This document shows, piece after piece, positions 10,124 to 63,877 of a stretch of DNA of 64,000 nucleotides. The translations under genes and the position numbers were made by a program. Under the pieces are notes generated by a model, which did no database searches, had not been told where the DNA came from, and saw only the letters and a program-made list of their open reading frames with translations. Source of the DNA: Kineococcus mangrovi. Its GTDB lineage: Bacteria; Actinomycetota; Actinomycetes; Actinomycetales; Kineococcaceae. Location of the stretch: NCBI RefSeq assembly GCF_041320705.1, contig NZ_JBGGTQ010000002.1, positions 62,001 to 126,000 on the forward strand, written 5' to 3'. Within the stretch, counting starts at the first letter, position 1, and each line of letters begins with the position of its first letter.

Positions 10124-13100
10124 GGCAGCTGCACCCCGATCCGGTCCAGCTCGGCGGTCCGCGCCCGCCGGTCCGGGTCGAGGTCCCGGCGCCGGTCGGG
10201 ATCTCGGCCGGGGTCGGGGTCGGGGTCGGGGTCGACGGTCACGGCCGGGGCGACCAGGTCCACGACCCACGGCAGGTCGTGCCCGGCGTCGGCCAGCGCG
10301 TCGCGCCACAGGCCCGCGACGCGGTCCGCCTCGGCGTCCGCGTCGGCGAACACGTCCGCGGTCAGGACCCGCACGTACCGCCACCCCCGCCGCTCCAGCT
10401 CGGTGGGCCCGTCGACCTCGCGGTCCACGACGTCACCACCGGCCCACGCCGCGTCGTCGAGCTCGACGACGAGCGCCGGTCCCGCACCCGCGCGGGCGCG
10501 GGCGTCGCGGACGACGAGCGCGAGGACCCGGGAGGCGCCGACCTCGCACCGGACCGGCAGGCCGACGCGGCGGCACGCGGCGGCGAGGCGCCGCACCACC
10601 GCGTCGGACCCCGGACGCTCCGGGCGACCGGACCCGGCGAGCAGCTCGTCGCGCTCCCAGGCCCGGGCGGTCCGCTCCAGCAGCCCCCGGCCGTCCTCCA
10701 CACCCTCCTCGTCCGGCCCCTCGGCCTCCCGGGCACCACCCCGGTCGGCGCTCCAGCCGGAGTCGTCCAGCACGAGGGTGGTGCGCAACCGGCTGCGGGT
10801 CAGCGCCATCCACGCCTCGGCCCGTCCCGTGGCCCGGCCCTCGCCGTCCGGGTCCCCGCCCTCGCCGGCAGCGCCCAGCGCGGGACCGTTCAGGACGGCG
10901 TCGGTGACCACGAGCACGTGGTCGCGGCGCTCGCCGGCCCAGCGGACGGGCGTCCCGACGAGCAGGGGCTCGCGGCCGACGGACAGCGGCAGACCGCGGT
11001 CCATCGCCTGGCGGCGGACCGTGTCGGCCAGCAGCTCGGCCCCCGCCGCGTCCGGCACGACCACGCCCAGGGACTCCTCCGGGTGGGAGGTCAGCGCGGC
11101 CAGGGCCGTCTCCACGACGAGGTCGACGAGGGCGTCCGGACCGCGGCGCGCCCCCGGCGGGCGGTCCGAGGTGCGGGCCGTGGCCCGGCCGTCCAGACCG
11201 GCGCCGGGCAGGGAGGACTGCCCCGGTGGCACCGGGGCACCCGTCAGGAGCGTGTCGTCGAGCAGGGCGTGCTGGCGGTCCAGGCGCAGGGTCGGCAGGA
11301 CACCCTCGACGTCGGCGAACAGGCTGTCCCGCACCGGTCCGGGCACCACGTGCTCGTCGCGCGCGGTGGGCAGGTCGGTCGGTCCGGGGAGGTGCGGGTC
11401 GCCCACCACGAGGACGCGCGCGGCGCGCGAGAGCGCCGGGAGCGCGGCCGCCGTCCTGGTGGCCTGAGCCCCCAGCACGACGAGCAGGTCGGCGTCCGGG
11501 ACGTCGTCGGCCAGCCGGGCCACGCCCGCCGCGGACAGCGCGGTCACGGGCAGCAGGTCACCGGGGCGGCCCGACGCCTGGGCCCGGGAGTCGACCTCGG
11601 CCCGGGCCCGGGCCGTCTGCCGGCCGCGGCGCGCGGCCACCGCCAGCTGCAGCTCGTAGCGCGCCGTGCGCAGCGCAGCCGCCTCCCCCGTGCCCACGAG
11701 CGGGTCGACCATCGAGATGGCGTCCAGCACCCCCGCCCACCAGGCGCGTTCCACCTCCGAGGGCAGGTGCAGGCTGCCCGGGCCGTCCCAGCGCGCGCGC
11801 AGGTCCTCCAGCACCCCGCCCCAGCCACCGTCCTCGAGCTCGTCGAGCAGCACGGTCCGGCGCGGCAGCGGGCCGAGGGCGTCCGCGTCCGCGGCCAGCT
11901 GCCGCAGGAGCGCGGACAGCTCCGGCAGCTGGACGTCCTGCAGGGACGCCGCCCCCAGGTCCGTCCACGAGCGCGTCGGCAGGACCCGCGCCAGGTCGTC
12001 GAGCTCCTGGCGCACCGCCGCCACCGCGGCGACGAGCGCGTCGAGGTCGTCGGGCACCACCGGCGCGTTGTCCCGCACGGACACGCGTTGCCAGCGCAAC
12101 CGCTCCGAACGCGCCTGCTGCAGCCACGCGTGCAGGGTGGACCAGTCACCGGCGGAGACGTCGGGGCGCAGCAGGGCCCGGGCCTCGCGCCGCAGTCGCC
12201 AGCGTCGCACCCAGCCCTGTCGAACCTCGTGCTCGCGCCGCCACTGCGGCGTGGCCGTGGCGGCCGCCACGTCGCCGAGGGACTGACCGAACACGTCGGC
12301 GCCGAAGCGACCGACGGTGGTGCGGACCCCTTCGAGCAGCGCGGTGCGGTCAGCCGCCTCCCCGACCGAGGCGGCACCGCGCAGACCCGCCGCGTCGCAG
12401 ACCGTCGCCAGGAGCGCGCGCAGGGCCGGCAACCGCTGGCCGATGAGGTCCTCGACCCGGGCCAGGGCCTGCTGCGCGACCTGCGGGGTGCGCAGGTCCG
12501 CACCCGCCCAGGGCGTCGTGCCGGGGCCGACGTCGAAGGCCCCCAGGTCGACGGCCTCCACGAGGCGCTCCGCCCAGCGGGGCAGGTCCTCGCGCGAGCA
12601 GCCCGACAGGTCCTCACCGCGCAACCGGCGGCTCGTCGTCGGCGGCGCGGGCCGCTCGGCCAGGTCGAGCAGGGCGTGCACGGCCTGCGCCGCGCTGACG
12701 CCCCACGGGTCGCGGGGCCGGTGCAGGGCGCGGGCGTGCTCGTCGAGGGCCGTCGCCGGCGCGGCGACGTCCGGTTCGGCGACCTCTGCCGGGGCCGGGG
12801 CGTCCAGGCGGGCCCGGACCTCGCGGCGGGCCGCGTCGAGCTGGACGGAGGCGTCGTCGGCCGAGCCGTCCAGGTCCGCGACCAGGTGCAGCAAGAGACG
12901 CCCGAAACCGTTGTCGCGCAGCCGTTCGTCCACCGCTCGCCGGTCGGCGGCCGAGTCGGCGACGAGGAGCACCCGGCGCCCTGCGACGACCTCGGAGGCG
13001 ATGACGGCGGCCGCGACCTGCGTGGCGCCCGTCCCGGTCGGGGCGTCGAGCCGCACGTCGCGGCCCGCCAGGACGGTCTCGACGACGCGACGCTGGGCCG

Positions 13101-55451: not shown

Positions 55452-55969
55452 GCCCGCACCCTCCCCGGTCGCAGGTCCTTCGTGAAGGGCAGGGGCCCGA
55501 TCGTCTCGGAGTCGGTGACCACGTCGAAGAGGGGACGGAACCCCGTCCGCAGGTAGAGCTCGCGGGCCTCCGGCTGCCGCGGACCGGTCGTGAGGAACAA
55601 CCGCTCGTAGCCCGCCGCGACGGCCCGCCGCTCCAGTTCGGCGAGCACCTGCCGGGCCAGTCCCCGTCGCCGGTGCGCCGGGTGGGTCCAGATGCGCTTG
55701 AGTTCAGCCGTGCCCACGTCGTACCGGCGGTAGGCGCCCCCGGCGACGGGGGCGCCGTCCTCCAGCAGCAGCAGGAGGACCCCGCCGGGGTCCGCGAACT
55801 GCTCCGCCGGGTGGCGCAGCAGCTCCTCGCGGACCTGGTCGGGCGTCGCGCCGTAGCGGGTCGCGTACTCGCGGGCGAGGTCCTCGAACAGCGGTCGGGC
55901 CAGCGGGTCGTCGACCGCCACGGACCGCACGACGAGGCTGCCGGCCCCGGTGGCCCAGCCGGCGCTCAC
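55334..55969 (-). CDS. GNAT-family N-acetyltransferase with antisense run-on tail
   Basis: The 211-residue frame has a normal GNAT core in residues ~11-166. ELKRIWTHPAHRRRGLARQVLAELERRA is the acetyl-CoA-binding motif A (R/Q-x-x-G-x-G/A), and YERLFLTTGPRQPEARELYLRTGFRPL is motif B. The core ends at PFTKDL. About 45 further residues are simply the antisense of the convergent permease gene, so the ancestral stop seems lost. The GTG start overlaps the ABC-ATPase stop (GTGA), making it the last gene of the SAM-riboswitch operon. It may acetylate an amine released from the imported compound; that is inference. Confidence 0.82.
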   Translation of the reverse strand: MSAGWATGAGSLVVRSVAVDDPLARPLFEDLAREYATRYGATPDQVREELLRHPAEQFADPGGVLLLLLEDGAPVAGGAYRRYDVGTAELKRIWTHPAHRRRGLARQVLAELERRAVAAGYERLFLTTGPRQPEARELYLRTGFRPLFDVVTDSETIGPLPFTKDLRPGRVRAQPPPIPVSATPRTSQRWSTRNTSSTGTSESRAAANNPE

Positions 55970-57624
55970 CGGACGTCCTCGAGCGCACGCCGCCCGGGCA
56001 CCGCGTCGAGGAGTTCAGCCGTGTACGAGTGCTGCGGACGCTCGAACACCTCCTGCACCGGTCCGAACTCCACCAGCTCCCCGTTCCGCACGACCCCCAC
56101 CTCGTCGCTGATTTGGCGCACCACGGCCAGGTCGTGGGAGATGAAGAGGTAGGCCAGGCCGTGGTCGGACTGGAGCTGCACGAGCAGCTCCAGGATCTGC
56201 GCCTGCACCGACACGTCGAGCGCCGAGACCGGTTCGTCGCACACGACGACGTCGGGGTCGAGCGCGAGAGCCCGGGCGATGGCGACGCGCTGGCGCTGCC
56301 CCCCGGACAGTTCCGCCGGCCGGCGCTCGGCCAGCTCGGTGGGCAGGCGCACCTGGTCCAGCAGCTCCAGGACCCGCGTCCGGCGCGACCGGCGGTCGCC
56401 GACCGCGAAGGCGCGCAACGGTTCCGCGACCGTCTCCCCCACCGGCAGGCGCGGGTCCAGGGACGCGTAGGGGTTCTGGTAGACGAACTGCAACCGGCGA
56501 CGCAGCGCACGCCAGGCGGAACCGCGCAGCAGACCCGTGTCCTGGCCGTCGAGGAGGACCCGACCCGACGTCGGGCGTTCCAGGCCGAGGACGAGCCGGG
56601 CCGTGGTGGTCTTGCCCGATCCCGACTCCCCCACCAGCCCGACCGTGCGGCCCCGGTCGAGGTCGAAGCTGACGTCGGACACGGCCCGGTGCACCCGGCC
56701 GCGGCCGGGGAGGGGGAACTCCTTGACCAGCGACCGCACCTGCAGCAGGGGTGTCCCGGCCCGCGGTCCCGGGGTCCGGGCCGGGGCGTCCCCGCCTCCC
56801 GCGGGCCGCACGCCCGCCTGCAGCCGGGTGGTCGCGAAGCTGGGCGCAGCCGCCAGGAGGGAGGCCGTGTACGCGTGCCGGGGTCGGGTCAGGACCTGCG
56901 GGGTCGTCCCCGTCTCGACGACCTCGCCCTGGGACATCACGACCACGCGCGAGGCCCGGTCCGCCGCGACCGCCAGGTCGTGGGTGATGAACAGGACGGC
57001 TGTGCCCGCCTCGCGGGTGAGCTGCGCCAGGTGGTCCAGGACCGTGCGCTGGACGGTGACGTCCAGGGCGCTCGTCGGTTCGTCGGCCACGAGCAACCGG
57101 GGGCCGGCGGCGAGCCCCACGGCGATGAGGACGCGCTGGCGCATCCCGCCGGACAGCTGCGTGGGGTACTGCCGTGCGCGCACCGCGGCGTCCGGCAGGC
57201 CCGCCGCCGTGAGCAGGTCCACCGCCCGTCGGCGCGCGTCGGCGCCCCGGGCCAGCCCGTGGATCCGCAACACCTCGGCCACCTGGTCCCCGACGCGCGT
57301 GACGGGGTTGAGGGACAGCGTCGGGTCCTGCGGGACCAGGCCGATCCGGGCCCCGCGCACGGACCGCCAGGCCCGTTCGCCCAGACCCACGAGTTCCTCG
57401 CCCTCGAAGCGCACCGAGCCGGCGTCGACCGCACCACCCGGGGGGAGCAGACCCACCACGGCGTGCGCCGTCGTGCTCTTGCCCGAGCCGGACTCGCCGA
57501 CGACCGCGACGACCTCCCCGGGGTGCACGTCGAGCGACACCCCGTGCAGGACCTCGCGGCGCCCGCCGCGGCCGGAGTAGGACACCCGCAGGTCCTGGAC
57601 GCTCAGCAGCGGTTCGGTGCTCAC
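55966..57624 (-). CDS. Double-domain peptide-type ABC transporter ATPase (DppD-DppF fusion)
   Basis: The 552-residue protein has two complete nucleotide-binding domains: Walker A GESGSGKS at 43-50 and 332-339, signature LSGGMRQRV near 157 and LSGGQRQRV in the second half, and Walker B LLVADEPTSALD and VVVCDEPVSALD. Each half belongs to the oligopeptide/nickel subfamily (the first half DppD-like, the second DppF-like). GTG 57624 overlaps the permease stop. The SAM riboswitch upstream points to methionine or a sulfur compound as cargo rather than nickel or general peptides. Confidence 0.93.
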   Translation of the reverse strand: MSTEPLLSVQDLRVSYSGRGGRREVLHGVSLDVHPGEVVAVVGESGSGKSTTAHAVVGLLPPGGAVDAGSVRFEGEELVGLGERAWRSVRGARIGLVPQDPTLSLNPVTRVGDQVAEVLRIHGLARGADARRRAVDLLTAAGLPDAAVRARQYPTQLSGGMRQRVLIAVGLAAGPRLLVADEPTSALDVTVQRTVLDHLAQLTREAGTAVLFITHDLAVAADRASRVVVMSQGEVVETGTTPQVLTRPRHAYTASLLAAAPSFATTRLQAGVRPAGGGDAPARTPGPRAGTPLLQVRSLVKEFPLPGRGRVHRAVSDVSFDLDRGRTVGLVGESGSGKTTTARLVLGLERPTSGRVLLDGQDTGLLRGSAWRALRRRLQFVYQNPYASLDPRLPVGETVAEPLRAFAVGDRRSRRTRVLELLDQVRLPTELAERRPAELSGGQRQRVAIARALALDPDVVVCDEPVSALDVSVQAQILELLVQLQSDHGLAYLFISHDLAVVRQISDEVGVVRNGELVEFGPVQEVFERPQHSYTAELLDAVPGRRALEDVR

Positions 57625-58532
57625 GCCGTTCCCCTCTCCAGCGCCCGGGCGATCCGGTGGGTGGACAGCACGACCGCCACCACCACCAGCCCGGGCAGGG
57701 TCGTCAGCCACCAGGCGGTGGCGAGGTAGTCGCGGCCGCCGGAGACCAGTGCCCCCCACTCCGGGGCCGGCGGCGGGGAGCCGAACCCGAGGAAGCTCAA
57801 CGCCGACACCGACAGCACCGCGACGCCGAACTCCAGCGCCGACAACGCCAGGACGGGTCCGGCGGCGTTGGGCAGCACGTGCCGGAAGAGCACCCCCGTC
57901 GTCCGGACCCCGCCGGCGCGGGCGGCCTCGACGTACGGCGAGGCGCTGACCTTCAGCACCTCCGAGCGCATGACGCGGGCGAAGTTCGCGACGGTGCCGA
58001 TGCCGACCGCGACCGCCACCTGCACGGTGCCGAACCCGAGCGCGGTGATGAGCGCCATCGACAGCAGCAGCGACGGGATGGACAGCAGCACGTCGACGAC
58101 CCGCATGAGGACGTCGTCCACCATCCCGCGCAGGAACCCGGCGACGAGCCCGACGAGGGTTCCCGCGACCAGACCGATGAGCACGGCGAGCACGGTGGCC
58201 TGCAACGTCAACCGGGCTCCGTGCACGACCCGCGCGAACAGGTCTCGGCCGAGGTGGTCGGTGCCGAAGACGTGCGCCGCCGACGGTCCCTGGAGCCGGT
58301 CGGCCGGGACGCCCTGCGCCGGGTCCTGACCGGTGACCAGGGAGGGCGCCACCGCCCAGGCGAGGACGAGGAGCAGGACGAACCCCGCCAGCACGAGGTC
58401 GGGGTGCCGGAGCCAGGCGGGCAGCGGGCCGCGCGGCGCCCCCGCCGCGCGGTAGCGGGTCCCGATGTCCAGCACGTCGAGCACGTCCTCGGGGTCCCCC
58501 CGGTCCAAGGTCCGGGCAGGGGTGCGGCTCAC
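57621..58532 (-). CDS. ABC transporter permease (DppC type)
   Basis: The 303-residue permease has a cytoplasmic N-terminus and then HVFGTDHLGRDLFARVVHGARLTL, the conserved OppC/DppC motif. Six helices and an EAA-like loop (YVEAARAGGVRTTGVLFRHVLPN) follow. GTG 58532 has GGGAGG upstream and overlaps the stop of the first permease. Confidence 0.93.
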   Translation of the reverse strand: MSRTPARTLDRGDPEDVLDVLDIGTRYRAAGAPRGPLPAWLRHPDLVLAGFVLLLVLAWAVAPSLVTGQDPAQGVPADRLQGPSAAHVFGTDHLGRDLFARVVHGARLTLQATVLAVLIGLVAGTLVGLVAGFLRGMVDDVLMRVVDVLLSIPSLLLSMALITALGFGTVQVAVAVGIGTVANFARVMRSEVLKVSASPYVEAARAGGVRTTGVLFRHVLPNAAGPVLALSALEFGVAVLSVSALSFLGFGSPPPAPEWGALVSGGRDYLATAWWLTTLPGLVVVAVVLSTHRIARALERGTA

Positions 58533-59554
58533 GCGGCACCTCCCACCAGGACGCGTCCGCCACCGCTGCGGGTGCGCCGTCGCGAGGCGCCGGCCCCGAC
58601 GACGCGCAGACGCGGGTCCACCCAGGGGAGCAGCAGGTCGACGACGAGGTTCGTGACCACGAAGACGGTCGCCGCGAGCAGCACGAGACCCTGCACCAGC
58701 GGGATGTCCTGCCCCTTCACCGCGGTCACCGTGAGCCGTCCGACGCCCACCCGCGAGAAGACCGTCTCGACGACCACGGCACCCGCCAGCAGGTTCCCGA
58801 CGATGATCCCGCCCAGCGTGAGGGTCGGGATCGCGGCGTTGCGCAGCGCGTGCCGCAGGTGCACGCGGGAGCGGGAAGCACCCTTGGCGCGGGCGGTCTC
58901 GACGTACGGTTCGGCCAGGGCCGTCCGCAGGCTGCGGGCCAGCACCTGGGCGATGGACGCCGACACCGGGACCGCCAGCGTCACCGCCGGCAGGACGAGG
59001 CTCGCGGGGCCCTCGTCGCCCAGGGCCGGGAAGACCGGCAGTCGGAACGAGAACGCCTGGACCAGCAGCAGTCCCACCCAGAACGTGGGCAGCGAGACCC
59101 CCAGCGGGGGCAGGGCCTGCAGCGACGTGCGCAGCCAGGACCGGTGGACGGCGGTGGAGGCCAGGGCGATCCCCACCCCGAGGACCAGGGCGAGCAGGAA
59201 CGACGACGCCGCGAGGACCGACGTCTGCGGCACCGCGCCGCGGATGAGCGTCGTCACGGGGGCACCGTTCTGGATGGAGTTCCCGAGGTCCAGGTGCAGC
59301 GTCCGCCACAGCGCGTGCGCGTACTGCACGGGCAGCGGGTCGTCGAGGCCGTGCTCGGCCCGCAGGGCCGCGACCTGCGCGGGGTCGGCCGTCGACTGCT
59401 CCCCGCCCTGCCCGCCGGCCAGCATGATCGAGACCGGGTCGCTGGGCAGCAGGTAGAGGATGACGAACGTCACCGTGAACGCGGCCCACAGCACCAGGAC
59501 GGCCTGGCCGAGCCGGCGGACGACGTACCCCGCGCGACCGCCACCGGCCGTCAC
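58529..59554 (-). CDS. ABC transporter permease (DppB type)
   Basis: The 341-residue permease begins YVVRRLGQAVLVLWAAFTVTFVILYLLPSDP, the hallmark of DppB/OppB. It has HGLDDPLPVQYAHALWRTLHLDLGNS and the EAA loop YVETARAKGASRSRVHLRHALRNA. The GTG start overlaps the TGA of the binding-protein gene. Confidence 0.93.
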   Translation of the reverse strand: MTAGGGRAGYVVRRLGQAVLVLWAAFTVTFVILYLLPSDPVSIMLAGGQGGEQSTADPAQVAALRAEHGLDDPLPVQYAHALWRTLHLDLGNSIQNGAPVTTLIRGAVPQTSVLAASSFLLALVLGVGIALASTAVHRSWLRTSLQALPPLGVSLPTFWVGLLLVQAFSFRLPVFPALGDEGPASLVLPAVTLAVPVSASIAQVLARSLRTALAEPYVETARAKGASRSRVHLRHALRNAAIPTLTLGGIIVGNLLAGAVVVETVFSRVGVGRLTVTAVKGQDIPLVQGLVLLAATVFVVTNLVVDLLLPWVDPRLRVVGAGASRRRTRSGGGRVLVGGAA

Positions 59555-61155
59555 GACTGCTTCCAGGCGTCGTGGAACCAGAGCCGGGAGGAGCCCTCGA
59601 ACTGCAGGCCGTGGACGTCGTCCGACGCCGCGATGACGGTGGAGAGCTCGATGAGGGGGATCGAGTGCGCGTCCTGCACGAGCGAGCGTGAGGCCTGTTC
59701 CACCAACCGCGCCCGCTGCGCGGCGTCGGTCGTGGACGCCTGCTCGGCGAGCAGGTCGTCGACCGCACCGCGGGGCCGCTGGTTCACGTTGCGCGTGTCG
59801 GTGGAGAAGACGGTGCGCAGGACGTCCGAGTCGGACCGGGTGAGGTTGTAGAACAGGACGTCGTAGTCGCCGGAGTTCTGCTGCGCAGCCGTGTCGGCGG
59901 TCGTGCCCTGCTTCAGCTGCAGGTCGAAACCGACCTCACGGACCTGCTGCTGCAGCAGTTCCAGCACGGCCGACGTGGGCTGCCAGAACAAGACGGTGAA
60001 GGTGAGCTCGCGTCCGGCCTTCTCGCGGATCCCGTCCGCACCCCTGGTCCAGCCGGCCTCGTCGAGCAGGCGGTCCGCGCCGGCCAGGTCGCGGGCGAGC
60101 ACCGGGGAGTCGTCGGGGGCGTCGGGGGTGGACGCCGAGAGGGCCGACCGCACGGCCTGGTCCCCCGGGTTGAGGAGGCTCGCCAACTGCTCGCGGTCGA
60201 CGGCCTTCGACAGCGCCTGCCGGACGCGGACGTCGTCGAACGGTGCCCTCGACTCGTTGGGGAACAGGTTGTACGGGATCCCGGGGTTGGCCCGCCGCTG
60301 CGTCCAGAAGCCGTTCCCGTCGAACTGCGGCAGATCCTGGGACGCGATGCCGGTCGTGGCGTCGACCTGGTGCGACTGCAGGGACCCGGTGCGCACGCCG
60401 GCCTCGGGGACCACGCGGTAGGTGACCGAGTCGAGGTGGGCCTCGCCCTGGTGCTGCGCCCCGGTCGGTGCCCAGTCGTACCCGCTGCGCCGGTCCAGGA
60501 CGGTCGTGGCGTCCTTGGTGTAGCTGCCGACGACGAAGGGACCGGAGCCCACGAGCGTCGTCCCTGCGCAACGGGTCGCGGGATCGGCGGTCGTGGTCGG
60601 GACGGACAGCAGCCCGAGGCTCATGGTCGAGGTGGCCTGCAGGAACTGCGCACTGGGCCGGGAGAACGTGACGACGGCCGTCTGCGCGTCGGGGGTCTGC
60701 GTCCCGGTGTACCCCTGGAGGTACGTGGACCCGAGCGGGGCCTTGGCCCCGAGCGCGACGATCCCGTCGAGGTTCGCCCGGACCGCGGTGGCGTCCACCG
60801 GCGACCCGTCGGAGAACGTCGCCCCCTGCCGCAGGTGGAACGTGAACGTCGTCGCGTCCGGGCTGACCTCGAAGCGCTGCGCGAGCCACGGCTGGATCCG
60901 CCCGTCGAGGTCCTGGACGGTGAGGGAGTCCACGAGCTGGCGGCCGATGTTCAGCGCGTCGTTGTTCCCGACCTGCTGCGGGTCGATGCACCCGGAGTCG
61001 ACGGAGATGGCGAACGTGAGGTTCCCTCCGCGGACGGGGGCGGCGCCGGCGTCGTCGGCGCTGCTGCGGCTCCCGCTGCACGCGGTGAGCACGCCGAGCA
61101 GCGGGACGAGGGCGGCGGCGGACAGGACGGTGGGCAGGGAGGTGCGGCGGCGCAA
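59551..61155 (-). CDS. ABC transporter substrate-binding lipoprotein (SBP_bac_5 family)
   Basis: The 534-residue exported lipoprotein has the signal SLPTVLSAAALVPLLGVLTAC with lipobox Cys26. It then has the family-5 binding fold, FAISVDSGCIDPQQVGNNDAL, TFHLRQGATFSDGSPVDATAVRANLDGI and DDVRVRQALSKAVDREQL, usual in peptide, nickel and glutathione binding proteins. The start is a TTG at 61155 with AGGAG five bases upstream. It lies 78 bases after the leader-peptide stop and is the first structural gene of the SAM-riboswitch operon. Confidence 0.92.
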   Translation of the reverse strand: MRRRTSLPTVLSAAALVPLLGVLTACSGSRSSADDAGAAPVRGGNLTFAISVDSGCIDPQQVGNNDALNIGRQLVDSLTVQDLDGRIQPWLAQRFEVSPDATTFTFHLRQGATFSDGSPVDATAVRANLDGIVALGAKAPLGSTYLQGYTGTQTPDAQTAVVTFSRPSAQFLQATSTMSLGLLSVPTTTADPATRCAGTTLVGSGPFVVGSYTKDATTVLDRRSGYDWAPTGAQHQGEAHLDSVTYRVVPEAGVRTGSLQSHQVDATTGIASQDLPQFDGNGFWTQRRANPGIPYNLFPNESRAPFDDVRVRQALSKAVDREQLASLLNPGDQAVRSALSASTPDAPDDSPVLARDLAGADRLLDEAGWTRGADGIREKAGRELTFTVLFWQPTSAVLELLQQQVREVGFDLQLKQGTTADTAAQQNSGDYDVLFYNLTRSDSDVLRTVFSTDTRNVNQRPRGAVDDLLAEQASTTDAAQRARLVEQASRSLVQDAHSIPLIELSTVIAASDDVHGLQFEGSSRLWFHDAWKQS

Positions 61156-61233
61156 GGGTTCTCCTGGGAAGGGGTGGGGCGCACCGACGGGACGGCGGCG
61201 CGCGGAGCCGGGTCGGAGCCGGCGGGAGGACGG

Positions 61234-61311
61234 TCAGCGACAGCTGGTCGCACCGGTGCGGCAGAGGTCCACGACGCGCCGCAGGACGGCGACGTGAGAC
61301 GTGCGGTCCAC
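61234..61311 (-). CDS. 25-residue Cys-containing leader peptide
   Basis: GTG 61311 has GGAGGGG (61317-61323) five bases upstream. The 25-codon frame contains RRVVDLCRTGATSCR at its C-terminus (Cys17, Cys24) and stops with TGA at 61234. The (R)RxVDLCR-x-x-x-x-C pattern resembles short peptides annotated, as I recall, as putative leader peptides before sulfur-metabolism genes in actinobacteria. Stalling at the Cys codons under cysteine limitation could change folding of the 78-base interval before the binding-protein gene. It lies directly after the SAM-I riboswitch, whose P1 3' strand overlaps its ribosome-binding site. Confidence 0.72.
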   Translation of the reverse strand: MDRTSHVAVLRRVVDLCRTGATSCR

Positions 61312-61321
61312 CTGAACCCCT

Positions 61322-61408
61322 CCATCGTTCCTGGCGGAAGCACCCGCGCCCGTTTTTGGGGGGTTGCTGCGGCGTCGCGGAGCCAGGTCTCTCAGCCGCT
61401 CTGGATGG
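61322..61408 (-). ncRNA. SAM-I (S-box) riboswitch
   Basis: On the minus strand the RNA has the S-box core. P1 is CCAUC (61404-61408) with GAUGG (61322-61326). Then comes CCAGAG and P2 GCGGC...GCCGC containing the kink-turn UGAGAGA. AGCAACC with GGGUGCU forms P3 around an AAAAAC loop. P4 is UUCC-GCCA-GGAA. CAGAGCGGCUGAG, GCCGCAGCAACC and GGGUGCUUCC match the family consensus. It senses S-adenosylmethionine and normally turns off methionine synthesis or uptake. Here it precedes the leader peptide and the ABC-transporter operon; the P1 3' strand runs directly into the peptide's ribosome-binding site. Confidence 0.9.
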
Positions 61409-61419
61409 TTGCACCGTGA

Positions 61420-61448
61420 ACTCTACGGGGAACCGTGCCGGAACTCAA
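61420..61448 (-). promoter_or_regulatory. Promoter of the riboswitch/ABC operon
   Basis: Minus strand: TTGAGT (61443-61448), exactly 17 bases, TAGAGT (61420-61425). The start would be at about 61413, a few bases before the aptamer, so the operon is transcribed independently of metE. Confidence 0.78.
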
Positions 61449-61467
61449 CCACGGACTTCCCCGGGGA

Positions 61468-61510
61468 CGGCCGAACCCCTCCACCCCGGTGGGGTGGAGG
61501 GGTTCGGCCG
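61468..61510 (-). terminator. 20-bp perfect stem terminator of metF-metE
   Basis: 61468-61487 pairs without mismatch with 61491-61510 around a three-base loop, 9 bases after the metE stop. It is the strongest hairpin in the window and separates the metE transcript from the riboswitch promoter. Confidence 0.85.
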
Positions 61511-61519
61511 TGAGGGAGG

Positions 61520-63877
61520 TCAGCCCGCGACGGGCGTACCCTCGAGCAGTTCCGCCCGTACGGTGCGCGCGGCCTCGACGAGGTTCCGCAGGGACTCCGT
61601 CGTCTCGGCGTACCCCCGCGTCTTGAGCCCGCAGTCGGGGTTCACCCAGACCTGGGGTGCGGGCACCGAGCCGACGGCCGACCGGAGCAGCCCCACGACC
61701 TCCTCGGCGGACGGGACGCGCGGGGAGTGGATGTCGTAGACGCCGGGACCGATGCCGCGGGCGAAACCGGCCCGGGCGACGTCCTCGAGCACCTCCATCC
61801 GCGAACGCGCCGCCTCGATGCTCGTGACGTCGGCGTCCAGGCCGTCGATGGCCTCGATCACCTCCCCGAACTCGGAGTAGCACAGGTGGGTGTGCACCTG
61901 CGTCGCGTCGGCCGCCCCCGCGGTGGCCAACCGGAAGGCGGTGACGGACCAGTCGAGGTACGCCGCCTGGTCGGCCGTCCGCAGCGGCAGCAGCTCCCGC
62001 AGCGCGGGTTCGTCCACCTGCACGATCCCGATGCCCGCCGCCTCGAGGTCGGCGACCTCGTCGCGCAGGGCGAGGGCGACCTGGTTCGCGGTGTCCCCCA
62101 ACGGTTGGTCGTCGCGCACGAAGGACCAGGCGAGGATCGTCACCGGGCCCGTCAACATGCCCTTGACGGGTTTCGCCGTCCGACTCGCCGCGTACCTGCT
62201 CCACGGCACCGTGATGGGCGCGGGTCGCGACACGTCGCCCCACAGGATCGGCGGCCGGACCCCGCGCGAGCCGTAGGACTGCACCCAGCCGTGCTCGGTC
62301 ACCGCGAACCCGTCGAGCTGCTCGGCGAAGTACTGGACCATGTCGTTGCGCTCGGGTTCGCCGTGGACGAGGACGTCGAGGCCGAGCTCCTCCTGCAGCT
62401 GCACGACGCGGTCGATCTCGGCGCGCAGGAACTCCTCGTACCCCTCCTGCGCGAGCTCACCCCGGCTCCGGGCAGCACGCGCCCGGCGGATCTCGGACGT
62501 CTGCGGGAAGGACCCGATGGTGGTCGTCGGCAGCAGCGGCAGACCCAGGGCCGTCTCCTGCGCCACCCGCCGCACAGCGTGGTCGCTGCGCCGGAACGCG
62601 TCCGGGGTCAGCGCGGCGAGCCGGTCGCGCACCTGCGGCCGCACCACGCCGGAGGCGCCGAGACGATCGGCCCGGGCCGCGGCCGAGTCGGCCAGTCCCG
62701 CGGCCACGCCGGAGCCGTCCGGATCGGCCAGGGCCCGGCCCAGCAGGACGACCTCGGCCACCTTCTGGTCGGCGAAGGACAGCCATCCGCGCAGCCGCTC
62801 CGGCAGAGCGCTCTCGCGGGACACGTCGTGCGGCACGTGCAGCAACGAGGTCGAGGTGCCCGGGACGACGCGACCGGCAGACCCCTGCATCCGGCGCAGG
62901 CTCTCCCGCGCCTCCTCGAGGTCCCCGCGCCAGACGTTGCGCCCGTCCACGACGCCGCCGACGACGGTCTTGCCCGCCAGGACGGACGGGTCCGCCGGCG
63001 CGGAACCCTCCACGAGGTCGAGCGCGATCCCCTCCACCGCGCTCAACGCACCGAGGAACTCCTGCGCGTCCCCGTACGGCGTGGCCACCAGCAACCGCGG
63101 GCGGCCCGGAACCGCGGCGAGCCGCTCGTAGGCCCCCCGCACCAGGTCGGCCAGGCCGTCGACACGGGCCGTCGCGGACTCGCTCACGAGACCGGGTTCG
63201 TCGAGCTGGACCCAGGTGGCCCCCGCCGCGGCGTGGGCTGCCAGCAGACCCTCGTAGGCGGCGAGCAGGTCCTCGAGCCGGCTGATCGGCGCGAAACCCT
63301 CCGGGCCGCCGTCGGCGGCCTTGGCCAGGAGCAGGAACGTGACCGGCCCCACGACGACCGGGCGGGTGAGGAACCCGTCGGCCAGCGCCTCGGAGAACTC
63401 GCGGACCCCGCGGTCGTCGGCGAACCGGAACGCCGTCGTGGGACCGATCTCGGGGACGAGGTAGTGGTAGTTCGTGTCGAACCACTTCGTCATCTCCAAC
63501 GGGGCCAGCGTCCCGCGCCCCCGGGCCATGGTCGAGCAGGCCCCGAGGTCCACCCGGCCGTCGGCCCCGACGAGGTCGGCGAAACGCTCCGGCACCGCCC
63601 CCACGGCGACGGCGGTGTCGAGGACCTGGTCGTAGGCGGAGAACGAGGACGGGATGGACGCGTCGTGGGCGGGCAGCCCGAGGGCGTTGAGGCGCCGGAC
63701 CGTCCGGGCGCGGACGGCGGCCAGGGCCGATTCGGTGGCGGCCAGGTCGGCGCGCCCGGCCCACAACGCCTCCATGGCCTTCTTGGTCTCCCGGTCGGGT
63801 CCGATCCGCGGGTAGCCGAGGACCGTCGCGTTCCACTCGGGGTGCTGGGTGTGACCGGTCGGTGCGTTCTGGCTCAT
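61520..63877 (-). CDS. metE: Cobalamin-independent methionine synthase
   Basis: The 785-residue cytoplasmic enzyme transfers the methyl group from 5-methyl-THF-polyglutamate to homocysteine. Both barrels are present: LGYPRIGPDRETKKAMEALWAG at the N-terminus, and the catalytic C-terminal barrel with zinc ligands in VHTHLCYSEF (His and Cys) and NPDCGLKTR (Cys), plus HGEPERNDMVQYFAEQL. The length is as in E. coli MetE. ATG 63877 overlaps the metF stop (ATGA) with GGAGGACGCACCCG upstream. Despite its role, no riboswitch is seen in the part of its leader that is in the window. Confidence 0.97.
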   Translation of the reverse strand: MSQNAPTGHTQHPEWNATVLGYPRIGPDRETKKAMEALWAGRADLAATESALAAVRARTVRRLNALGLPAHDASIPSSFSAYDQVLDTAVAVGAVPERFADLVGADGRVDLGACSTMARGRGTLAPLEMTKWFDTNYHYLVPEIGPTTAFRFADDRGVREFSEALADGFLTRPVVVGPVTFLLLAKAADGGPEGFAPISRLEDLLAAYEGLLAAHAAAGATWVQLDEPGLVSESATARVDGLADLVRGAYERLAAVPGRPRLLVATPYGDAQEFLGALSAVEGIALDLVEGSAPADPSVLAGKTVVGGVVDGRNVWRGDLEEARESLRRMQGSAGRVVPGTSTSLLHVPHDVSRESALPERLRGWLSFADQKVAEVVLLGRALADPDGSGVAAGLADSAAARADRLGASGVVRPQVRDRLAALTPDAFRRSDHAVRRVAQETALGLPLLPTTTIGSFPQTSEIRRARAARSRGELAQEGYEEFLRAEIDRVVQLQEELGLDVLVHGEPERNDMVQYFAEQLDGFAVTEHGWVQSYGSRGVRPPILWGDVSRPAPITVPWSRYAASRTAKPVKGMLTGPVTILAWSFVRDDQPLGDTANQVALALRDEVADLEAAGIGIVQVDEPALRELLPLRTADQAAYLDWSVTAFRLATAGAADATQVHTHLCYSEFGEVIEAIDGLDADVTSIEAARSRMEVLEDVARAGFARGIGPGVYDIHSPRVPSAEEVVGLLRSAVGSVPAPQVWVNPDCGLKTRGYAETTESLRNLVEAARTVRAELLEGTPVAG

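Follow-up and report, generated by a model that had tools for sequence, protein, structure and literature searches.

A SAM-I (S-box) riboswitch and a short leader peptide containing cysteine are stacked in one mRNA leader of Kineococcus mangrovi, ahead of an ABC transporter operon, and a comparison of related loci showed that the two elements are conserved together. The window, that is, the whole stretch of 64,000 nt that was analysed, had been read before from its letters alone. This sequence-only reading gave no strand, and the feature lies entirely on the minus strand. The observation was confirmed and is much stronger than first thought, while the interpretation is partly supported and plausible in logic. 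What goes beyond the earlier reading is that Cys24 of the peptide rather than Cys17 is conserved, that its codon is TGT, that the arrangement recurs, and that it has a SAM-IV version.

Layout of the leader and its recurrence in Kineococcus

The features of the locus are given here in 5' to 3' order on the minus strand.

61520, minus strand: 3' end of metE, the first feature in this direction
61510-61468, minus strand: long inverted repeat without a T tract, after metE
61420..61448, minus strand: promoter-like boxes TTGAGT (61448-61443) and TAGAGT (61425-61420), 17 nt apart, from the sequence
61319..61411, minus strand: SAM-I (S-box) riboswitch aptamer (Rfam RF00162, 57.9 bits, E 8.7e-11)
61408-61404, minus strand: 5' strand of helix P1, CCAUC, from the sequence
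61317..61326, minus strand: 3' strand of P1, GAUGG (61326-61322), overlapping the Shine-Dalgarno sequence (SD) GGAGGGG (61323-61317), from the sequence
61234..61311, minus strand: leader-peptide ORF with GTG start, MDRTSHVAVLRRVVDLCRTGATSCR, stop TGA, 25 codons, from the ORF list
61240..61242, minus strand: codon TGT of Cys24, position D+9, the conserved sensor candidate from the peptide comparison
61156..61233, minus strand: 78-nt spacer from the peptide stop to the main gene, C-rich and G-poor in composition
61165-61161, minus strand: SD of the main gene, AGGAG, within the 78-nt spacer
59551..61155, minus strand: ABC substrate-binding lipoprotein gene with TTG start, Opp/Nik/TIGR04028-like (TIGR04028, E 8.9e-87)
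58529..59554, minus strand: ABC permease gene, Opp2B/NikB-like by family match
57621..58529, minus strand: ABC permease gene, Opp2C/NikC-like by family match, start approximate
55966..57672, minus strand: double ABC ATPase gene, GsiA/OppDF-like by family match, start approximate

The claim of a complete S-box was borne out by the Rfam match, which covered the full model (positions 1-108) and exceeded the gathering threshold of 44.4 bits. The coordinates also agreed with the statement that the GAUGG strand of P1 shares two bases with the GGAGGGG of the peptide, and the minus-strand sequence read as described, with a 25-codon ORF (Cys at residues 17 and 24), then 78 nt, then the TTG-started ABC operon. 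The distance from the aptamer to the sORF is 7 nt. Less was left of the "consensus promoter": both boxes are present at a spacing of 17 nt, but they match the consensus at only 8 of 12 positions, and a scan at 9 of 12 reported no promoter. The transcript probably starts near the first base of P1. No intrinsic terminator was found by a scan of window positions 61000-61620. The binding protein scored 291.7 bits against TIGR04028, its best model, which is under the curated cut-off of 468.5, so the family scores do not settle the substrate of the operon. The closest relative of the binding protein was that of Kineococcus vitellinus.

The inverted repeat after metE (61468-61510) contains GAACCCCTCCA, 11 nt exactly complementary to the peptide start region UGGAGGGGUUC (61314-61324). 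Antisense action of the metE terminator on the sORF start was rejected, as the 11-nt complementarity was present in only two of seven loci checked (the window and L034); because it is absent from the five other loci of the group, it is treated as a curiosity.

The comparison covered 90 SAM-I places, 86 of them in 11 Kineococcus genomes and four in one genome of a sister genus. An RR sORF was defined as an ORF of at most 60 codons with the motif RRx(x)[VIL]D[LFH] whose start lies from -8 to +20 relative to the aptamer end. Such an ORF came next after 41 of the 90 aptamers, and 40 of these 41 were within Kineococcus (40/86 S-boxes). The controls gave one RR sORF in 5280 dinucleotide shuffles and none at 10532 other anchors in the same loci; the shuffles comprised 60 for each of 88 loci, two stretches being too short, and the main count keeps all 90. 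A long ORF, the start of the main gene, takes the peptide's spot in 38 of the 90 loci according to a script classification, in which "direct" means an ORF of at least 110 codons with an SD-like string and a start within 46 nt, and in which at least one row (L059) is in the wrong frame, though the right frame also starts there. Among the remaining 11 loci, nine precede a metF-like gene and have a short ORF, which is Cys-free except in the sister genus (L077), and the other two were left unassigned.

The RR sORFs start at +4 to +12 from the aptamer end in 39 of 41 cases and at -7 in two, and the direct long ORFs start at +1 to +13. As the distances are nearly equal, the leader peptide stands where the main gene would otherwise begin, and the presence of a long ORF at the same spot in 38 loci indicates that the translational output site of the aptamer is alike in both designs. 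All 90 aptamers contain CCATC/GATGG, the overlap of P1 and SD is alike in all 90 loci, and an SD stands before all 41 RR sORFs. A TANNNT box lay within 26 nt upstream of 64 of the 90 homologous aptamers, compared with 4 of 1663 control windows, but only 25 of the 90 had in front of this box another one resembling TTGACA (4 of 6 positions). An out-of-frame ATG at -7 of the aptamer end (124 aa in L003) was rejected as the start of a product, its length and sequence not being kept among orthologs.

The genome of the window carries eight SAM-I aptamers, four of which are followed by this type of short ORF, and the other three S-box peptides are MDSCTQLTRRYHVDLARTASMACR..., MTARTAARPPLVRRRHVDLGHLSSAVCSGR and MEHAPLTRRLVIDLLRSAGTTCRA. 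The sequence-only reading had named orthologous leaders with the aptamer but no conserved small ORF as a refutation, and this outcome did not arise: the 25-codon peptide type of the window was found right after the aptamer in 7 of the 11 Kineococcus genomes, counted by peptide type. The binding-protein gene is visible in six of these seven genomes; the seventh locus (L072) is cut off by the end of its contig and was assigned to the group through its peptide. By eye, except at the window locus, we take the genes after the peptide type to encode binding proteins, an O-acetylhomoserine sulfhydrylase-like and a sulfurtransferase-like protein, a cysteine-synthase-like protein and FAD/NAD proteins, and those after the direct type presumably encode a rhodanese-like protein, flavin monooxygenases, an ABC ATPase and an MFS transporter.

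The number of SAM-I copies per Kineococcus genome was 5 to 13, some of the genomes being fragmented drafts. Outside the family, 19 of 20 sampled genomes from other families of the order had none, and in the class sample 168 of 246 genomes had a SAM-I match, most of them one. These counts make SAM-I in Kineococcus a lineage-specific expansion. In four metF-type loci (L002, L019, L020 and L023), the Cys-free short ORF after the S-box has a stop that overlaps or abuts the metF-like start, which suggests simple translational coupling to the riboswitch. In the window genome, one FAD/NAD-type gene (L005, G000:C2:132572 onward) is cut to a 60-codon ORF with its aptamer and peptide still there, and its counterpart L057 has at least 377 codons. 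About 0.9-1.3 kb past the window end (G000:C2:126895-127251), a SAM-I aptamer on the minus strand, before a metF-like gene, stands back to back with a SAM-IV aptamer on the plus strand; one genome thus uses both classes in divergent leaders.

The peptide family and its cysteine codon

Counting from the Asp (D), the 41 peptides have an invariant Arg at D-4, the invariant Asp itself, and Leu or Phe at D+1 in 40 of 41, an invariance that is partly built in, as the search motif requires RR, Asp and then Leu, Phe or His. Outside the search motif, Arg was present at D+3 in 35 of 41 peptides and Cys at exactly D+9 in 39 of 41. Cys17 of the window peptide (D+2) is common to only 15 of 41. The D+9 position lies one to three codons ahead of the stop in 31 of 41 peptides, as would be expected of a cysteine-charging sensor. 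Like Cys-responsive attenuators, the family has a conserved Cys codon close to where a short ORF ends, ahead of sulfur genes (gene functions judged by eye). The ratio pN/pS, determined on whole peptides with variable ends, was 0.46-0.55 in three ortholog groups (0.53 in the window group) and 1.0 in two, so that selection on the frame shows in the former three only. The peptides of L010 and L011 are alike and stand before similar genes; they have kept RRHVDL and.RQSSAL and lost the Cys (Pro or Ser at D+9), as if this part of the peptide served a separate purpose, or as if the sensor were decaying.

The codon of the D+9 Cys was TGT in 36 of 39 peptides (TGT 36:3), whereas TGC was used for the other Cys of the same sORFs (34:3, Fisher p about 2e-14 versus D+9) and in 85 main genes, as far as their sequence reached (107:2, Fisher p about 2e-28 versus D+9). 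The third base at D+9 was A or T in 38 of 41 peptides, and GC3 was 0.924 at the other positions from D-12 to D+12. TGT also encoded the conserved Cys in all 29 peptide-bearing leaders of orthologous operons, 28 of which are new, as L130 and L062 are one and the same K. vitellinus locus. The same codon was found in all 27 readable class-wide peptides (29 loci, two peptides not located), in which the other Cys were TGC 19:4. This pattern of sequence conservation argues that the D+9 Cys codon is under selection. Slower wobble decoding by tRNA-Cys as the reason for TGT is a guess on our part. Cysteine attenuators do not need UGU in general, since a cysS leader ORF of Rhodobacterales has mostly UGC according to the available portion of PMC8632094. 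A TGT preference at leader-peptide Cys is not mentioned in the accessible text of the related open-licence PMC literature.

The family was also compared with known models. The window peptide matched the peptide profile in its own genome with an E of 4.6e-10, the profile including this peptide. At E<=10, 15 of 21 representative peptides matched NF042934 ("putative leader peptide"), the best at 1.4e-8. The window peptide itself gave no match at E<=10 to this model (cis_reg_atten, cut-off 27 bits); four of five sister peptides matched it at 18.2-31.9 bits, one of them above 27, and the fifth had no match. The sole family match of the window peptide was to NF042933 Ms5788A, at 13.7 bits, under the curated cut-off of 45.

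A profile of 21 peptides found 64 peptides in the genus at E<=0.01, and 40 of these lay just downstream of a SAM-I aptamer. Six of the other 24 were scanned against Rfam; five gave nothing and one, L235 (G010:C599) of Kineococcus, gave a SAM-IV of 104.5 bits ending about 5 nt before the start of the RR sORF, so that both aptamer classes are paired with an RR peptide within one genus. Two RR peptides of the window genome, L125 and L126, have no Rfam family near, and their start adjoins a -10-like box; they are apparently leaderless, judging by this box. One of the two stands before a gene whose paralog elsewhere has both S-box and peptide, which makes the peptide look like a modular add-on. The class-wide searches for SAM-I, SAM-IV and the peptide used an even sample of 246 Actinomycetes genomes, and 29-30 loci were read for each among the matches listed. 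At least one such peptide was present in 133 of the 246 genomes, and no Rfam family was found in any of the 20 loci scanned among the 29 new class-wide peptide loci. The family is thus widespread and often alone; in Kineococcus it has been placed behind S-boxes.

We also analysed the best 80 relatives of the window binding protein. An RR peptide was located within 600 nt upstream in 29 of them and none in 51. The Rfam scan covered 58 of the 80 loci, including all 29 with a peptide, and showed a SAM-IV ahead of the peptide in 18 of the 29 leaders (Streptomyces and Blastococcus), a SAM-I in one (Kineococcus) and nothing in 10. The SAM-IV of L172 and L175 was only just above threshold. In 9 of the 18 SAM-IV leaders the peptide frame opens within 30 nt of the aptamer end; in the others it starts further on. 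Seven loci had a SAM-IV close upstream but lacked an RR peptide; unrelated Cys-rich sORFs were present in two of these (L136 and L150). In four Arthrobacter-type loci a SAM-IV lay about 2.7 kb away, and in L186 (Nocardia) a borderline SAM-I match lay about 1 kb upstream. The pairing is no general rule for SAM-IV or for SAM-I in the class: no RR peptide was found at the 28 readable loci among the 30 top-scoring SAM-IV loci, and at 26 of the 29 readable loci among the 30 top SAM-I loci the aptamer directly heads one long protein, which we take to be threonine synthase. Unrelated Cys-rich short ORFs follow the SAM-IV in L136, L150 and L246 (MRALGTEQEHDRRAVCRLGGARPLAPCCR, MAHWQCPDAPCVGCRRMLLVPRACR and MRASLHPLTRCCCR), and these are possible independent inventions of the same pairing.

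Folding tests, proposed mechanism and alternatives

The sequence-only reading had SAM binding hide the peptide start. Folding of 39 RR loci did not support such masking, as the mean exposure of the SD was 0.35 with P1 forced and 0.35 with P1 blocked; at the window locus it was 0.29 with P1 and 0.22 without, a direction opposite to the masking model. The proposal that stalling gates the binding-protein gene fared no better in general. A modelled ribosome stalled on the Cys codon freed the main SD by a median of 0.05 kcal/mol in 37 loci (mean 0.61, down to -4.4 kcal/mol in L066), by -0.9 kcal/mol at the window locus, and by more than 2.5 kcal/mol in only nine loci. These nine include four of the metY group's six loci. 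A conserved attenuator fold of the spacer was rejected, RNAalifold on six orthologs of the window group giving a weak structure of -11.6 kcal/mol with a covariation term of -0.22.

The composition of the spacers was also determined. In the 37 usable spacers, mean C was 0.554 and mean G 0.257, and every one of the 37 had more C than G; in control gaps of the window C was 0.38 and G 0.365, with C above G in 17 of 28. The opening codons of main genes and the 5' portion of sORFs also had more C than G, and because the skew extends beyond the spacer it is weak evidence for Rho. The genome encodes rho (637.5 bits).

On balance, and from sequence comparison, we favour a reading in which the aptamer would license a cysteine-sensing attenuator and so form an AND gate for low SAM and low cysteine. 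Starting from the aptamer, the sORF, their recurrent stacking and the conserved peptide motif and TGT codon, we infer all three regulatory steps: the response to SAM, the stalling of the ribosome and the effect on the operon. With plentiful SAM, the S-box would close P1 and hold part of the peptide SD, and few ribosomes would enter the leader; this step draws on the geometry and on sister loci with the main gene itself at that spot. When SAM is low, the peptide would be translated, and the ribosome would pause at the conserved UGU Cys codon if Cys-tRNA were short, by analogy with the cysteine-responsive attenuators of mycobacteria. The RRx(x)VDL part may prolong the pause from within the exit tunnel. 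In the least certain step, the parked ribosome would alter the fate of the C-rich spacer so that the operon is expressed; it might keep Rho-dependent termination in check or, in some operons, open a hairpin around the stop codon. Ample cysteine or ample SAM would leave the operon low. One point against this gate is that much of the spacer would not be covered by a ribosome stalled close to the stop. A wider proposal, which we regard as possible rather than probable, would have UGU-specified, arrest-like peptides licensed operon by operon by SAM-I in a rewired sulfur-scavenging regulon that responds to low SAM and low cysteine together, with UGU (through slow wobble decoding or pause context) as a universal sensor in high-GC Actinobacteria and with the peptide paired with SAM-IV in other actinomycetes.

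Several other explanations were weighed against the AND gate. The aptamer could control the sORF and the sORF simply relay its state, by keeping Rho off or by re-initiation, with cysteine not sensed at all. C-rich spacers fit Rho, the metF-type leaders of the same genus with their Cys-free short ORF look like plain relays of this kind, and mycobacterial riboswitches acting via a uORF provide precedents for B12 (PMC11260477) and the M-box (PMC12810186), as far as the available text of these papers goes. However, a relay ORF needs neither an invariant Cys (39/41) nor one synonymous codon for it (TGT in 36/39), nor a peptide family that is also found without SAM-I (24 of 64 in the genus, and no Rfam match at the 20 of 29 class-wide loci scanned), and we consider a pure relay unlikely, though worth keeping in view. 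Arrest by the nascent chain received a lower estimate still and seems distinctly doubtful. Here R-x(2-3)-D-L-x-R-x-x-S-x-x-C would stall via the tunnel and sense a sulfur metabolite or Cys-tRNA, the single UGU would set the pause site, and the S-box would gate the reading of the sensor. Such a peptide would account for the invariant Arg at D-4 and Asp (both required by the motif), the Arg at D+3 (35/41) and the fixed Cys (39/41), none of which is needed for codon counting, but the conserved residues might serve another role of the free peptide.

It is also conceivable that the sORF is untranslated and the SD at the S-box is a ribosome-recruiting site for the distant main gene, as proposed for Sinorhizobium metA, where, in the accessible text of PMC9373788, translation under a SAM-II starts 74 nt downstream of the SD. 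We hold this to be very improbable, as a separate SD precedes the main gene about 150 nt downstream and three of the five ortholog groups show signs of a conserved sORF frame. Short ORFs are common in high-GC DNA, and the peptide could be a chance ORF in a GC-rich leader; the controls (1/5280 and 0/10532) and the TGT bias within sORFs (p about 2e-14) refute it, leaving it a negligible chance.

Riboswitches and amino-acid attenuators are usually treated apart from each other. At 40 of the 86 S-boxes of one genus, the arrangement described here appears to combine them, with a metabolite aptamer controlling whether ribosomes reach an amino-acid sensor. The AND gate, if true, would be a naturally occurring device with two inputs that ties the methionine/SAM end of sulfur metabolism to the cysteine end. 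The pairing is repeated often enough to be dissected by comparison, and it occurs with another aptamer class in other genera. The near-absolute UGU among third positions of about 92% GC raises a testable question on codon choice versus sensitivity to tRNA charging.

Comparison with known systems

The aptamer agrees with SAM-I (RF00162) in matching the whole model above threshold and differs from its usual form in that the first translated product here is a leader peptide. SAM-IV (RF00634) is another aptamer class, yet in Streptomyces and Blastococcus it occupies the same place before this peptide family and this operon. The peptide resembles NF042934, NF042933 Ms5788A, NF042936 Ms4527A and the mycobacterial polycysteine sORFs in its Cys on the C-terminal side, its RRxVDL core and its position upstream of sulfur genes. 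Canestrari in 2020 reportedly described the mycobacterial polycysteine sORFs as candidate cysteine attenuators. These sORFs are leaderless according to the consulted parts of citing papers (PMC13236596 and PMC9094748). In contrast, the window sORF starts 100 nt past the first aptamer base, at an SD shared with the aptamer, given the probable transcript start.

Riboswitch-controlled uORFs of Mycobacterium tuberculosis, described for B12/ppe2 (PMC11260477) and M-box/pe20 (PMC12810186), are like the present case in having a small ORF ahead of the main gene under a riboswitch, and Rho is involved or considered there in the text available. However, the same text reports no amino-acid-sensing codon in these uORFs, whereas the sORF here has a conserved Cys codon. 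A conserved Cys codon in a riboswitch-controlled sORF means that two signals may be read.

The leader of Salmonella mgtA is one mRNA leader that reads two signals. The tandem attenuators of Salmonella mgtCBR also read two signals in one leader, one of them via amino-acid codons of a short ORF (PMC3641672, in part). The signals of mgtCBR are others and, in that part, both attenuators are ORF-based, whereas here a metabolite aptamer abuts the SD of the leader ORF.

Candidate cysteine attenuators have been described previously (PMC1262725, accessible text), and leader peptides and SAM switches of S. lividans were treated separately in the available sections of PMC8079986. The genome paper of Kineococcus radiotolerans mentions riboswitches, in the portion at hand, only for cyclic di-GMP (PMC2587704). 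No report of a SAM riboswitch controlling a cysteine leader peptide was found in the open-licence PMC full text, as far as it was accessible. Two-signal leaders, uORF riboswitches and candidate cysteine attenuators are thus already known, and the comparison suggests that a SAM riboswitch set on a cysteine leader peptide is a new combination of them.
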